From contig JAIXOO010000115.1 in NCBI GenBank assembly GCA_027486765.1, forward strand, positions 1 to 64,000: a DNA stretch of 64,000 nucleotides, read 5' to 3'. Shown in pieces: positions 6,406-60,923 of this stretch. How positions within the stretch are numbered: the first letter of the stretch is position 1; the number at the start of each line of letters is the position of its first letter. This stretch comes from Saprospiraceae bacterium (GTDB taxonomy: Bacteria > Bacteroidota > Bacteroidia > Chitinophagales > Saprospiraceae). Position numbers and translations under genes: made by a program. The notes beneath the pieces were generated by a model. The model was not told where the DNA came from. It worked only from the letters and a program-made list of their open reading frames with translations, and did not search any database.

Positions 6406-6418
6406 TAGATTTTAATTT

Positions 6419-6468
6419 CCATAAAAAAGGGTCAAATTTTGAATTCAAAATTTGACCCTTTTTTATGG
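6419..6468. terminator. Perfect 50-bp palindrome, bidirectional terminator between convergent genes
   Basis: CCATAAAAAAGGGTCAAATTTTGAATTCAAAATTTGACCCTTTTTTATGG: A-run/stem/T-run centred on GAATTC. Confidence 0.85.
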
Positions 6469-6480
6469 AAGGAATTCACC

Positions 6481-8165: not shown

Positions 8166-8274
8166 GTTGAGAAGTTGAGGAGTTGAGGAGTTGAGGCTAC
8201 CGCAGTGGCTTGGACGAGATCTAGTCTAAGTCGCTGCGGTAGCCTCAACTTCTCAACTCCTCAACTTCTCAACT
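8166..8274. repeat. Family A hairpin element, copy 1 (core 8195-8244)
   Basis: Left GGTTGAGAAGTTGAGGAGTTGAGGAGTTGAGGCTACCGCAG pairs with right CTGCGGTAGCCTCAACTTCTCAACTCCTCAACTTCTCAACT, one mismatch. Confidence 0.9.
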
Positions 8275-8795
8275 CATTTCATCAGTTTCCCCATTTCCCC
8301 CATTTTGTCAATACTCTGGGTGGCAATGGCGGTGCCCTCATTGAATTCGGTGGCTACCTTACGAAAGGCATTACGGGTAACTTTATAAGCCTCTTCCACC
8401 GTTTTGGGTTCGTATTTGGACCAGTCGATGACCTTTACCTCTGCCTCCGCAACAACGGGTTGTTCGACTGGATTGGAACGAACCAGCCACCACAACCCCG
8501 TAGCGACCAGCGCAAACACTGCGGCAATGCGCAAAACCCAGGCTATCGAAAGTGTACGAATCACTGGTTTTGGCTTGCTGGATGCTTCGATTGCGGCCAT
8601 CACTTTGGCATCAAAATCATCGCCCAGACTTAATTCAGCGTCTTCTTCCAGCAGTTGAAACCATTCGCGGTAAGTCAAATGCTCTTCAGAAATGGGTTCC
8701 GTTTGTAACAATTGCCGCAGTTGGGCCTCTTCTTGCAGGCTACTTTCGCCAGCGAAGTACTTGTCTAAAAGGGATTGAATTTGCTGCTGTTTCAT
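8274..8795 (-). CDS. Putative anti-sigma factor (single TM)
   Basis: Adjacent to ECF sigma gene; N-terminal QIQSLLDKYFAGESSLQEEAQLRQLL typical of Bacteroidota anti-sigma proteins; one TM helix. Confidence 0.65.
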   Translation of the reverse strand: MKQQQIQSLLDKYFAGESSLQEEAQLRQLLQTEPISEEHLTYREWFQLLEEDAELSLGDDFDAKVMAAIEASSKPKPVIRTLSIAWVLRIAAVFALVATGLWWLVRSNPVEQPVVAEAEVKVIDWSKYEPKTVEEAYKVTRNAFRKVATEFNEGTAIATQSIDKMGEMGKLMK

Positions 8796-17531: not shown

Positions 17532-18254
17532 ATGACCATATACGCAAGTAACACCCGCAAAAAGAATTTGGGCAATAGTTTAGAAGCCAAAATGGCTTTC
17601 ATTGAGCGCTACCCCCTGTTTTCTTGTCTTAGCCTCGAGGAAAAAATGCAATTGGCCAATCAGATGGAACATCGCGAAAAAACCCGTTATGGCTTCGTGT
17701 ATGAGACAGGAGAAAGTTCTGAGGTACTGTACTTGCTTGCCGAAGGTGCCATCAAAATTGGTGCTACCTCCCACGATGGCAAGGAAGTGATCAAAGCCTT
17801 GATTCACCCTTTGGCGATGTTTGGCGAACTGGGCCTGGTCGGCGAAGTGCGCCGTCAGGAATTTGCCCAAGCCATGAAAGAAGAAGTAGTTTTGTTTGCC
17901 GTCAAGGTAGAGGACTTCCGCCGGCTGATGCGTCAAAACTTCGAATTGTGTAATCGGGTGATGCTTTACCTGGGCAGTCGCTTGAGCTTGGCAGAACAAA
18001 AAATGGAGTCTCTGATTTTCAAGGATGCTCGCACCCGGATTGTGGATTTTATCAAAGATTCCGTCTCCGATCGTGGCCAACGTGTAGGTTATGAAATGCT
18101 CCTGCGGCATTCCCTTACTCACCAGGATATCGCCAATATCACTTGTACTTCCCGCCAAACCGTAACCTTGGTCTTAAATGAGTTGCGCAAATCCGATTTG
18201 ATCTACTTCAATAGAGGTAAGATTTTGGTGCGGGACTTGGCGAGACTGATGTGA
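17532..18254 (+). CDS. Crp/Fnr family transcriptional regulator
   Basis: cNMP-binding fold (LYLLAEGAIKIGATSHDGKEVIKALIHPLAMFGELGLVGE) and C-terminal HTH (LTHQDIANITCTSRQTVTLVLNELRKSDLI). Confidence 0.9.
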   Translation: MTIYASNTRKKNLGNSLEAKMAFIERYPLFSCLSLEEKMQLANQMEHREKTRYGFVYETGESSEVLYLLAEGAIKIGATSHDGKEVIKALIHPLAMFGELGLVGEVRRQEFAQAMKEEVVLFAVKVEDFRRLMRQNFELCNRVMLYLGSRLSLAEQKMESLIFKDARTRIVDFIKDSVSDRGQRVGYEMLLRHSLTHQDIANITCTSRQTVTLVLNELRKSDLIYFNRGKILVRDLARLM

Positions 18255-18361
18255 AAATGAAAAACTAAAAATGAAAAATGAAAAGTAGGCTACCGCTGGG
18301 GCTTGTACAACGTTGTGTGTCGAAGTCGCTGCAGCAGCCTATTTTTCATTTTTCATTTTTC
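18252..18361. repeat. Family A hairpin element, copy 2 (core 18288-18339)
   Basis: Arms of ATGAAAAA words (TGAAAATGAAAAACTAAAAATGAAAAATGAAAAGTAGGCTACCGC / GCAGCAGCCTATTTTTCATTTTTCATTTTTCC); begins at the regulator stop codon. Confidence 0.85.
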
Positions 18362-27701: not shown

Positions 27702-27821
27702 GGTTGAGAGGGTTTAGGAAGGTTGAGAAGGTTTAGGCTACCGCGAGCGATTTTGACAAAGACCTTGTCCAGGTCGCTTGCGGTAGCCTCAACCTCCCTC
27801 AACCTTCTCAACCTTCTCAAC
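27702..27821. repeat. Family A hairpin element, copy 3 (core 27736-27788)
   Basis: GGTTGAGAGGGTTTAGGAAGGTTGAGAAGGTTTAGGCTACCGC...GCGGTAGCCTCAACCTCCCTCAACCTTCTCAACCTTCTCAAC. Confidence 0.9.
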
Positions 27822-29720: not shown

Positions 29721-29820
29721 AGTTCCAGGGTTCCAAAGTTCCAGTGTTCCAGAGTTAGCTCCGAACCTTGGAACCCTGGAACCTTGGAACCCTCAAACTT
29801 GGAACCCTCAAACTTGAGCA
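29721..29820. repeat. Imperfect inverted repeat built of GGTTCCA(A/G) words
   Basis: AGTTCCAGGGTTCCAAAGTTCCAGTGTTCCAG ... AACCTTGGAACCCTGGAACCTTGGAACCCTCAAACTTGGAACCC. Confidence 0.75.
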
Positions 29821-31487: not shown

Positions 31488-31647
31488 GAGCTTGTTTAAG
31501 TTTTTTGTTCGGAAGCGAAAACGAGGCCATTTTTGCCTTAATGAGGCACGAAAAGCGGAGTTTAGCAGCGCTAAATGAGCATTTTCGGAACGAAATTAAG
31601 GCAAAAATGGACCGTTTGCAGCCCGAACAAAAAACTTAAACAAGCTC
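31488..31647. repeat. 160-bp fully nested imperfect palindrome (MITE-like)
   Basis: Outer arms GAGCTTGTTTAAGTTTTTTGTTCGG...GGCCATTTTTGCCTTAAT / ATTAAGGCAAAAATGGACC...CCGAACAAAAAACTTAAACAAGCTC; inner CGAAAAGC...TTTAGC-AGC-GCTAAA...GCATTTTCG. Confidence 0.9.
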
Positions 31648-38942: not shown

Positions 38943-39020
38943 GGGAGGATACTAAGTGACTCATTTCCAAAGCGACATTTTTATTATCACAAAGGAATGA
39001 TTGCCAAAGCGACACTATTG

Positions 39021-39162
39021 GCACAAAGGACACAATGGAATGCACAGAGGACACAGAGTTAGACGTTGACAAGGGTTATTCATGAGAAATATGTCGCTAG
39101 AAAGAAACCTCTGTCAACGTCTAACTTTGTGTTCTTTGTGCCCTTCTTTGTGTCCTTTGTGC
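39021..39162. repeat. Large inverted repeat of GCACAAAG/GACACAAAG words
   Basis: GCACAAAGGACACAATGGAATGCACAGAGGACACAGAGTTAGACGTTGACA vs reverse complement of TGTCAACGTCTAACTTTGTGTTCTTTGTGCCCTTCTTTGTGTCCTTTGTGC. Confidence 0.9.
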
Positions 39163-39208
39163 TACAAAATGCCGCTTTTGCTACTACCAAACACATTGTG
39201 TTCCTCAC

Positions 39209-45058: not shown

Positions 45059-45157
45059 GTGATAAGTTATAAATGATGAATGATGAATTGCTGCCGCAGA
45101 GACTTAGACAATGTCTCTGCGGCAGCAATTCATCATTCATCACTTTTCACTCATCAC
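45059..45157. repeat. Family A hairpin element, copy 4 (core 45089-45127)
   Basis: GTGATAAGTTATAAATGATGAATGATGAATTGCTGCCGCAGAGA...TCTCTGCGGCAGCAATTCATCATTCATCACTTTTCACTCATCAC. Confidence 0.9.
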
Positions 45158-54683: not shown

Positions 54684-54800
54684 CTACCTGAGGTGTGTCT
54701 TCGGTGCCTAAGGTTTCTTAGGTGGTAAAATAATACCTGCTTCGCAGGCTTTTTTCTTTTCACCACATAAGAAACCTAAGGCACTGAAGAGGCACCTTAG
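54684..54800. repeat. Family B hairpin, copy 2 (opposite orientation to 2837-2956)
   Basis: CTACCTGAGGTGTG...GGTGCCTAAGGTTTCTTAGGTGGTAAAA / TTTTCACCACATAAGAAACCTAAGGCACTGAAGAGGCACCTTAG; inner CCTGC-TTC-GCAGG. Confidence 0.85.
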
Positions 54801-59273: not shown

Positions 59274-59346
<73 letters not shown>

Positions 59347-59634
59347 CTGTTTAGGACTGCAAATATAGAGCAGGCTTTTGGATTAAACAACCCTTTTTGC
59401 AAATAAAAACTATTTTTCCTGCGTCTACCTGCTATTTCTTGCTTCAAAAAGCTGAACAACAGAGTTTTGCTTTTTAAAAAAAACTTTCGCGCTTTAAGTC
59501 AACCGGAATAATTCCCTCGCTGTTGAATACTGGACTGGAAAACAGGTTTAATTTTGTGTTTAAGTTCAGACGGTCTCAACCTTCTAAACTTTCTCAACCT
59601 TCTCAACCAGATTAGTCCTTTCCAAACCAATAAC

Positions 59635-60813
59635 ATGAAAGAAGTATTCATCGTTTCGGCCGTTCGTACCCCTATAGGAAGTTTTGGCGGCGTACTGGCC
59701 GGTTTTAGCGCCACCCAATTGGGCAGCATGGCCATCAAAGGTGCGCTGGCCAAAGCTGGAGTCGCCCCGGATCAAGTCCAGGAAGTACTGATGGGCAACG
59801 TCTGCTCCGCCAATCTGGGCCAAGCTCCCGCCCGGCAAGCTTCCCGAGGTGCGGGCATCCCCGACACTGTCCCTTGTACCACCATCAATAAAGTGTGCGC
59901 GTCCGGCATGAAATCCATCATGTACGGCGCCCAATCGATCATGCTGGGTTACACCGACCTCGTCGTAGCGGGCGGCATGGAAAGCATGAGCAACATCCCC
60001 TACTACGTGCCTTCGGCGCGTTGGGGCAGCAAATACGGCAACATGGAACTCGTAGACGGGCTCGCCAAAGACGGCCTCACTGATGCCTACGACCACCAGG
60101 CCATGGGCACCTGCGGCGACGCCACCGCAGCGAAATTCAACATTTCCCGCGAAGCCCAGGATGAATTTGCCATTCGCTCCTACACCCTGGCCGCCGAAGC
60201 GACGCAACAGGGTTGGTTCAAAAACGAAATAGTGCCCGTGAGCATCCCCCAGCGCAAGGGCGATGCCATCGACCTCGTAGAAGACGAAGAATACAAAAAA
60301 GTAGATTTCAGCAAAATTCCTACCCTCCGCCCGGCCTTCAGCAAAACCGGAACCGTCACTGCGGCCAATGCCAGTACCTTGAATGATGGCGCGGCGGCAC
60401 TGATTTTGGCCAGCAAAGAAATGGTGGAAAAATTGGGCCTTACCCCCATTGCCAAAATCCTCGCTTTTGCCGACGCTGAGCAGGAGCCCCAGTGGTTCAC
60501 CACTACGCCTACCATTGCCGCACCATTGGCGATGAAACGGGCAGGCATCAGCGCCAGCGAGGTCGACTTTTTTGAGGTCAACGAAGCTTTTGCCGTGGTG
60601 CCAATGGCCTTCAATCAGGTTTTGGGTATTGATGAAGCCAAAGTCAATGTATTCGGTGGCGCTTGTGCTTTGGGCCACCCGCTGGGTGCTTCTGGCGCCC
60701 GTATCGTGACAACGCTGACCAATGTCTTGAACCAAAAAGAAGCCAAAATAGGTTTGGCGGCCATTTGTAATGGAGGTGGTGGTGCCTCGGCCATAGTGAT
60801 TCAACGAGAATGA
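59635..60813 (+). CDS. Acetyl-CoA C-acyltransferase (thiolase)
   Basis: VRTPIGSFGG; CTTINKVCASGMKSI; FEVNEAFAVVPMAF; GGACALGHPLGASGARIV; LAAICNGGGGASAIVI. Confidence 0.95.
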   Translation: MKEVFIVSAVRTPIGSFGGVLAGFSATQLGSMAIKGALAKAGVAPDQVQEVLMGNVCSANLGQAPARQASRGAGIPDTVPCTTINKVCASGMKSIMYGAQSIMLGYTDLVVAGGMESMSNIPYYVPSARWGSKYGNMELVDGLAKDGLTDAYDHQAMGTCGDATAAKFNISREAQDEFAIRSYTLAAEATQQGWFKNEIVPVSIPQRKGDAIDLVEDEEYKKVDFSKIPTLRPAFSKTGTVTAANASTLNDGAAALILASKEMVEKLGLTPIAKILAFADAEQEPQWFTTTPTIAAPLAMKRAGISASEVDFFEVNEAFAVVPMAFNQVLGIDEAKVNVFGGACALGHPLGASGARIVTTLTNVLNQKEAKIGLAAICNGGGGASAIVIQRE

Positions 60814-60923
60814 TGAATGATGAGAGATGAATGATGAGTTGCTACCGCAGCGCTTTTGACAATGACCTTGTCTAAGTCTCTGCGGTAGCAACTCATCATT
60901 CATCTCTCATCATTCATCTCTCA
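60811..60923. repeat. Family A hairpin element, copy 5 (core 60840-60890)
   Basis: TGATGAATGATGAGAGATGAATGATGAGTTGCTACCGCAG...CTGCGGTAGCAACTCATCATTCATCTCTCATCATTCATCTCTCA; starts at the thiolase stop codon. Confidence 0.9.

Follow-up and report, generated by a model that had tools for sequence, protein, structure and literature searches.

Long hairpins are repeated through the genome from which the stretch of 64,000 nucleotides studied here (the window) was taken. They belong to dispersed subfamilies, lie at gene ends, keep their arms paired despite changes of the words that compose them, and occupy sites where sister species may carry a hairpin of another family. With modest confidence, we favour the view that they are interspersed palindromes of the general REP, BOX or MITE kind, high-copy, non-coding and restricted to one genus, placed after stop codons and reshaped over time by slippage, by template switching and by the replacement of one family with another, with a role as RNA that we infer. 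The family analysed in most depth, termed A, is modular: outer arms made of words of 7–10 nt enclose an inner GCTACCGC core, itself closed by an exchangeable apex.

Five A elements, none assigned to a strand, are present in the window. All fold as hairpins, with energies from -52.6 to -103 kcal/mol, around a common core (GCTACCGC...GCGGTAGC), as the first-pass annotation had proposed; they are near-perfect with the exception of that at 18252, where pairing is clearly imperfect. At 60811–60923, arms of 51 nt (60812–60862 and 60868–60918), 92% complementary, face each other across an apex of 5 nt. The 5′ outer arm (TGATGAATGATGAGAGATGAATGATGAGTT, 60811–60840) begins with a TGA which, by sequence and ORFs, is the stop codon of ORF 59554–60813; it is followed by the core GCTACCGCAGCGCTTTTGACAATGACCTTGTCTAAGTCTCTGCGGTAGC (60841–60889, identified by match to the core pattern) and by a 3′ outer arm (60890–60923) that sequence and folding identify as an inverted copy of the first. 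The element at 45059–45157 has TGATGAA arms and a core (45090–45126) whose 3′ half is a perfect mirror of its 5′ half. TTGAGRAGG arms are found at 27702–27821 (core 27737–27787), and TGAAAAA arms, which contain the TGA stop of ORF 17532–18254, at 18252–18361 (core 18289–18338). Finally, the element with TTGAGGAG arms at 8166–8274 (core 8196–8243) begins at the stop codon of ORF 8274–8795, which lies on the minus strand. The ORF list places three of the five (18252, 45059 and 60811) at convergent junctions, again as had been claimed. Overall, 19 stems of at least 20 bp were counted in the window, against one in a triplet-shuffled copy. A further convergent junction holds a perfect 27-bp palindrome (6417–6470), the sister-species versions of which differ by mirrored changes.

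The A core is found well beyond the window. Further copies were sought genome-wide with the pattern GCTACCGCN{20,60}GCGGTAGC, which matched at 135 places in this genome of 7.72 Mb (G000), while the reversed pattern used as a control matched at one. The same search found 117 matches in congener G001, 63 in G002, 85 in G003 and one in G004, whereas 35 further genera from the same family and order gave no match; a narrower pattern had no match in 394 other genomes across the phylum. Judged from these counts, the core appears restricted to one genus, probably Haliscomenobacter: G002, a single chromosome contig of 8,371,686 bases, is presumably Haliscomenobacter hydrossis, and the two closer relatives were assembled from metagenomes, under the labels Chitinophagales and Saprospiraceae. 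Among the other hairpins submitted to the phylum-wide pattern scan, TTGAGAAG was absent from all other genomes sampled and CACAAAGG occurred in six, with one match apiece. That the elements belong to no named repeat family holds in so far as literature searches limited to open-licence papers found no published description of them and the only Rfam family above gathering score in the window was a tRNA (59274–59346), with no hairpin matched; repeats of a generally REP- or BOX-like kind do exist, however.

The A elements are one among about a dozen hairpin families in G000. In 1.2 Mb of this genome there are 289 hairpins with stems of at least 28 bp, 50 of them with an A core, which extrapolates to some 1,800 for the whole genome. 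Draft contigs break inside hairpins, as the ends of C293 and C415 do in G003 at the orthologue of the 45059 site, so that hairpins are under-counted in draft genomes. The arms had been described as unrelated and unique to each locus, a claim that has to be abandoned: they are drawn from a small vocabulary (TTGAGRAGG, TGATGAA, TGAAAAA, GAGTTCCGAGTAC), common to many loci and partly tracking the core subtype, with four main types around the A core, namely TTGAGRAGG (A1, on most copies), TGAAAAATG, GAGTTCCGAGTACATGAG and TGATGAATGATGA. Much of the arm diversity is therefore subfamily diversity and, since arms are not locus-specific inventions, the original puzzle is weakened, though one core does carry different arms. 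The words accompanying the A core also differ between sister species, with AGATGAAAGATGAGAG in G003, and GTTCGAAGG and GTTGATGAAGG in G002.

Families of similar style without the A core comprise CTTAGGTG/CTAAGGTG (B), GTTCCAAAG (P), CACAAAGGA (C), GGATTTCGG and others, together with family T, where TGATGAATGATAAG words surround locus-specific loops. Several were recovered in the window by the hairpin scan, likewise without strand: two hairpins of family B, separate from A but of the same kind, with dispersed copies, at 2835–2958 (CTAAGGTG words) and 54688–54800 (CTTAGGTG words); one of family C at 39003–39181 (CACAAAGGA words with an inner module, TTAGACGTTGAC); and one of family P at 29721–29799 (GTTCCAAAG words), whose site in G002 holds a hairpin of GTTCGGGGG words. 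Apical modules are exchangeable, the GGTCACTGAGCGAAGTCGA apex being found in A1-armed, GTTCG-armed and other hairpins. We also considered nested growth of the arms, a new palindrome being inserted within an old one whose arms remain on the outside, but only 3 arms combined two word families, each of them from the A3 group, whereas 33 had a single family in both halves, and wholesale replacement of the arms fits better. Long palindromes with GTAGCGGCGGGTTTCAACCCG and stems of about 80 bp, are repeated through G002 (L138, L139, L143, L150, L155).

How are these hairpins placed with respect to genes? On a simple ORF-based map, with crude gene calls, 222 of 235 are intergenic, and a hairpin is present in 65 of 137 convergent gaps as against 26 of 133 divergent ones. 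Genome-wide, the median distance from a word-armed hairpin to the adjacent stop codon is 3 nt; 68% are within 10 nt and 34% overlap the stop, often because the arm itself provides the TGA or TAA. By contrast, the few hairpins of the MITE-like families D, E and M have a median distance of 45 nt. The first-pass annotation had placed all copies directly after stop codons: as a strong tendency this stands, but 6 of 44 intergenic A copies fall, on the same crude gene calls, in divergent gaps.

Comparison of orthologous junctions demonstrates that hairpins are kept while their words change or another family takes the site, which bears out the main prediction of the first-pass annotation. At the 45059 site, related cores are surrounded by TGATGAA arms in G000, TGACGAA arms in G001 and GATGAGA/GATGAAA arms in G003; G002 has a AGCGAATAGC hairpin. 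The 18252 element is kept in G003, while G001 has TGATGAG arms and a different apex. At 60811, where G000 has its A element, a hairpin of family B is present in G001 and G003, its start falling at the identical point past the last codon; in G002 there is no hairpin. Three unrelated hairpins (A, GTAGAGACGCACGG and GGGTTGATG) occupy the 8166 site in three species; G003 has none, and this may be a deletion, since neighbouring bases common to the other species are also missing. At another locus (L272:7596), 51-nt cores are identical in G000 and G001 and a CACGAAGG-type hairpin is present in G003. G001 and G003, finally, both retain the 27702 element at the orthologous position.

A less biased comparison, excluding loci that were fetched because they carried the element, found a hairpin in 19 of 21 orthologues of word-armed sites and in 10 of 97 orthologues of junctions that are hairpin-free in G000. 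Nine of the 19 are clearly different hairpins, by our own judgement of the list. Fisher's test gives p = 8e-13, a value that overstates the evidence, as several relatives are counted per site and are not independent; the comparison covers few loci with crude gene calls, and many control junctions probably lie inside operons. At the few orthologous sites devoid of a word-armed hairpin, no clean target duplication was seen.

These figures bear most directly on the possibility that selection maintains a 3′-end hairpin at particular gene ends, where any family would serve and families would swap while the function stays. The contrast between 19/21 and 10/97 argues for it, as do the three unrelated hairpins at 8166 and the mostly empty state, in relatives, of the few MITE-like D, E and M sites. 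However, gene ends may simply tolerate hairpins rather than need them, the controls include many junctions that are probably internal to operons, and the subset of convergent junctions is too small to settle the matter. We regard selection of this kind as a serious but rather doubtful candidate.

The way the arms change speaks to a second explanation, in which hairpin-primed or template-switch copying would be the main driver, rewriting both arms in place rather than drawing them from a dispersed family. In 21 same-family orthologous pairs, 22 base-pair changes are mirrored and still paired, against 2.6 expected were the two sides independent, and 11 of these 22 are transversions with no G-U path; in rRNA, 78.5% of two-step changes involve G-U or U-G pairs (PMC8794818). 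In 102 of 119 copies, the two arms agree in their innermost word (TTGAG or TTTAG). At 45059, different words stand around related cores, and the core is perfectly mirrored in G000 while G001 and G003 retain an asymmetric one; this mirrored core is as would be expected from one template switch, a process that can both create and maintain hairpins (PMC8794818). The same site shows what appears to be slippage: in G003 the 3′ arm is over-extended on that side by many TCTCATC units, and in G002 a tandem over-extension, also one-sided, is made of AGCGAATAGCTAAA units. Against copying as the main process, however, the same arms recur at many loci, one-sided changes (92) outnumber the mirrored ones, and a mismatch in the core, GATTTTGAC facing GACTTAGAC, persists in 67 of the 73 copies that could be classified, the other 6 being homogenised. 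Pervasive copying would have erased this mismatch; its retention indicates that cores mostly spread intact and that arm copying is occasional. The arm-copying process suggested by the first-pass annotation is thus partly supported, as a probable contributor, and we think it unlikely as the driver.

A bolder formulation would make certain gene ends into sites of hairpin rewriting, where the palindrome is kept over 10–20% nucleotide divergence while its words, or its whole family, are replaced in place through coupled slippage and inter-arm copying from a genome-wide vocabulary, the hairpin being inherited and its sequence not. We put this forward as a speculative proposal only.

Several known systems can be used as a yardstick. 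Cyanobacterial STRR (short tandemly repeated repetitive sequences) are heptamers described as direct arrays; A elements likewise string words of about 7 nt in tandem between genes but set them, inverted, on both sides of a core. Pneumococcal BOX elements are modular, with a variable number of boxB units. Compared by description, A elements resemble BOX, RUP and SPRITE (PMC3049150) in being small, interspersed, strongly structured, limited to close relatives, and likely to affect co-transcribed genes, with little or no known agent of transposition; in contrast with these, their repeated words sit in the arms, inverted around the core, and several families alternate at a site. They share with hairpins maintained by template switching (PMC8794818; for arm homogenization, PMC8604942) mirrored multi-base changes, stems that stay paired, and perfect stems arising de novo from a single event. 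The excess of mirrored changes (22 against 2.6) goes with that model, the persistence of the stem mismatch does not, and the published stems lie in conserved RNA genes or in inverted repeats of coding sequence, whereas A elements are dispersed repeats with periodic arms.

MITEs, too, are short, palindromic, non-coding and dispersed, but no terminal repeat or target duplication signature accompanied the A family in the comparisons made, and the MITE-like families D, E and M of G000 behave differently from it, with orthologous sites that are mostly empty. In the window, a 160-nt MITE-like palindrome (GAGCTTGTTTAAG...) lies at 31488–31647; its many copies in congeners are up to 95% identical. Both G001 and G003 have an empty site there, while in G002 a GTTCGAGG hairpin occupies it. 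A 101-nt family (AAAAATAAGTG...CACTTATTTTT), represented at L216:5576, L229:5844 and similar loci, shows ordinary MITE behaviour, the sites of relatives being empty.

In distribution, A elements recall the REP palindromes with GTAG and CGTC tags, which are high-copy and extragenic, form several families per genome and for the most part follow genes, in gaps where the neighbouring ORFs are convergent or unidirectional (PMC3733652). A elements are likewise high-copy, extragenic and mostly downstream of genes, and Y1_Tnp genes are present in all five congeners, so that mobilization of a GTAG-type REP or REPIN by a RAYT (Y1 tyrosine transposase) deserves consideration. Yet the stems are much longer, about 50 bp of low-complexity tandem words instead of 20–40 bp; GTAG is paired inside GCGGTAGC on both sides of the stem, not exposed as an unpaired tag; and the arms vary by subfamily and species around a common core. 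No A core was found beside Y1_Tnp genes at the ten loci sampled from 38 matches, which had other palindromes or none, and G004 combines nine Y1 matches with a single core match. With its tag inside the stem and the sampled transposase loci lacking the repeats, the A element is not a GTAG REP, and we consider RAYT mobilization improbable. At L278, L282 and L284, Y1 transposase genes lie near a different palindrome (GGCGATGTTCCACGTGGAACATCGCC or GAGATATCGCCCCTTCAGGGC), perhaps those genes' own REP family.

Equally hard to sustain is the idea that these are ordinary intrinsic terminators, the stems of which drift as paired bases mutate in two compensating steps, a pattern described in Bacillus cereus (PMC5381666). 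Their location after stop codons and at convergent junctions fits, as do some compensatory changes and the TTTTTT that follows the 27702 hairpin. That tract is an exception, however: after word-armed hairpins the frequency of T (0.25–0.42, for a background of 0.29) shows no enrichment, which leaves ordinary intrinsic termination unsupported. Moreover, half of the mirrored changes could not have gone through a G-U intermediate, unrelated hairpins occupy the same site in different species, and a core and arm families common to many loci give these sequences the status of repeat families, which excludes the word "ordinary". That inverted chimeras or mis-joined repeats produced the hairpins during assembly is scarcely credible: contigs do break at some of them, as at the split 45059 junction of G003, but the same structures occur throughout the single 8.37 Mb chromosome contig of G002 and at orthologous sites of independent assemblies.

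With interspersed, remodelled repeats as the favoured interpretation, a course of events can be proposed. Slippage would alter one arm, occasional template switching of DNA would copy one arm onto the other, and variant copies would spread through the genome alongside this remodelling. Transcribed, the elements would fold at the 3′ ends of RNAs, on both strands between convergent genes. Position and persistence suggest that the RNA hairpin might form transcript ends or protect mRNAs, with near indifference to its sequence.

Here, then, the persistence of a hairpin and the persistence of its sequence come apart, in a natural and countable case with an estimated more than 1,000 copies per genome and with several sister species. 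A note of caution follows for repeats, where covariation, the usual evidence of RNA function, can come from copying. The system could make the evolution of stems testable, setting two-step compensation against template switching and family replacement. It could likewise make it testable whether bacteria need, at particular gene ends, a 3′-end hairpin of any sequence.
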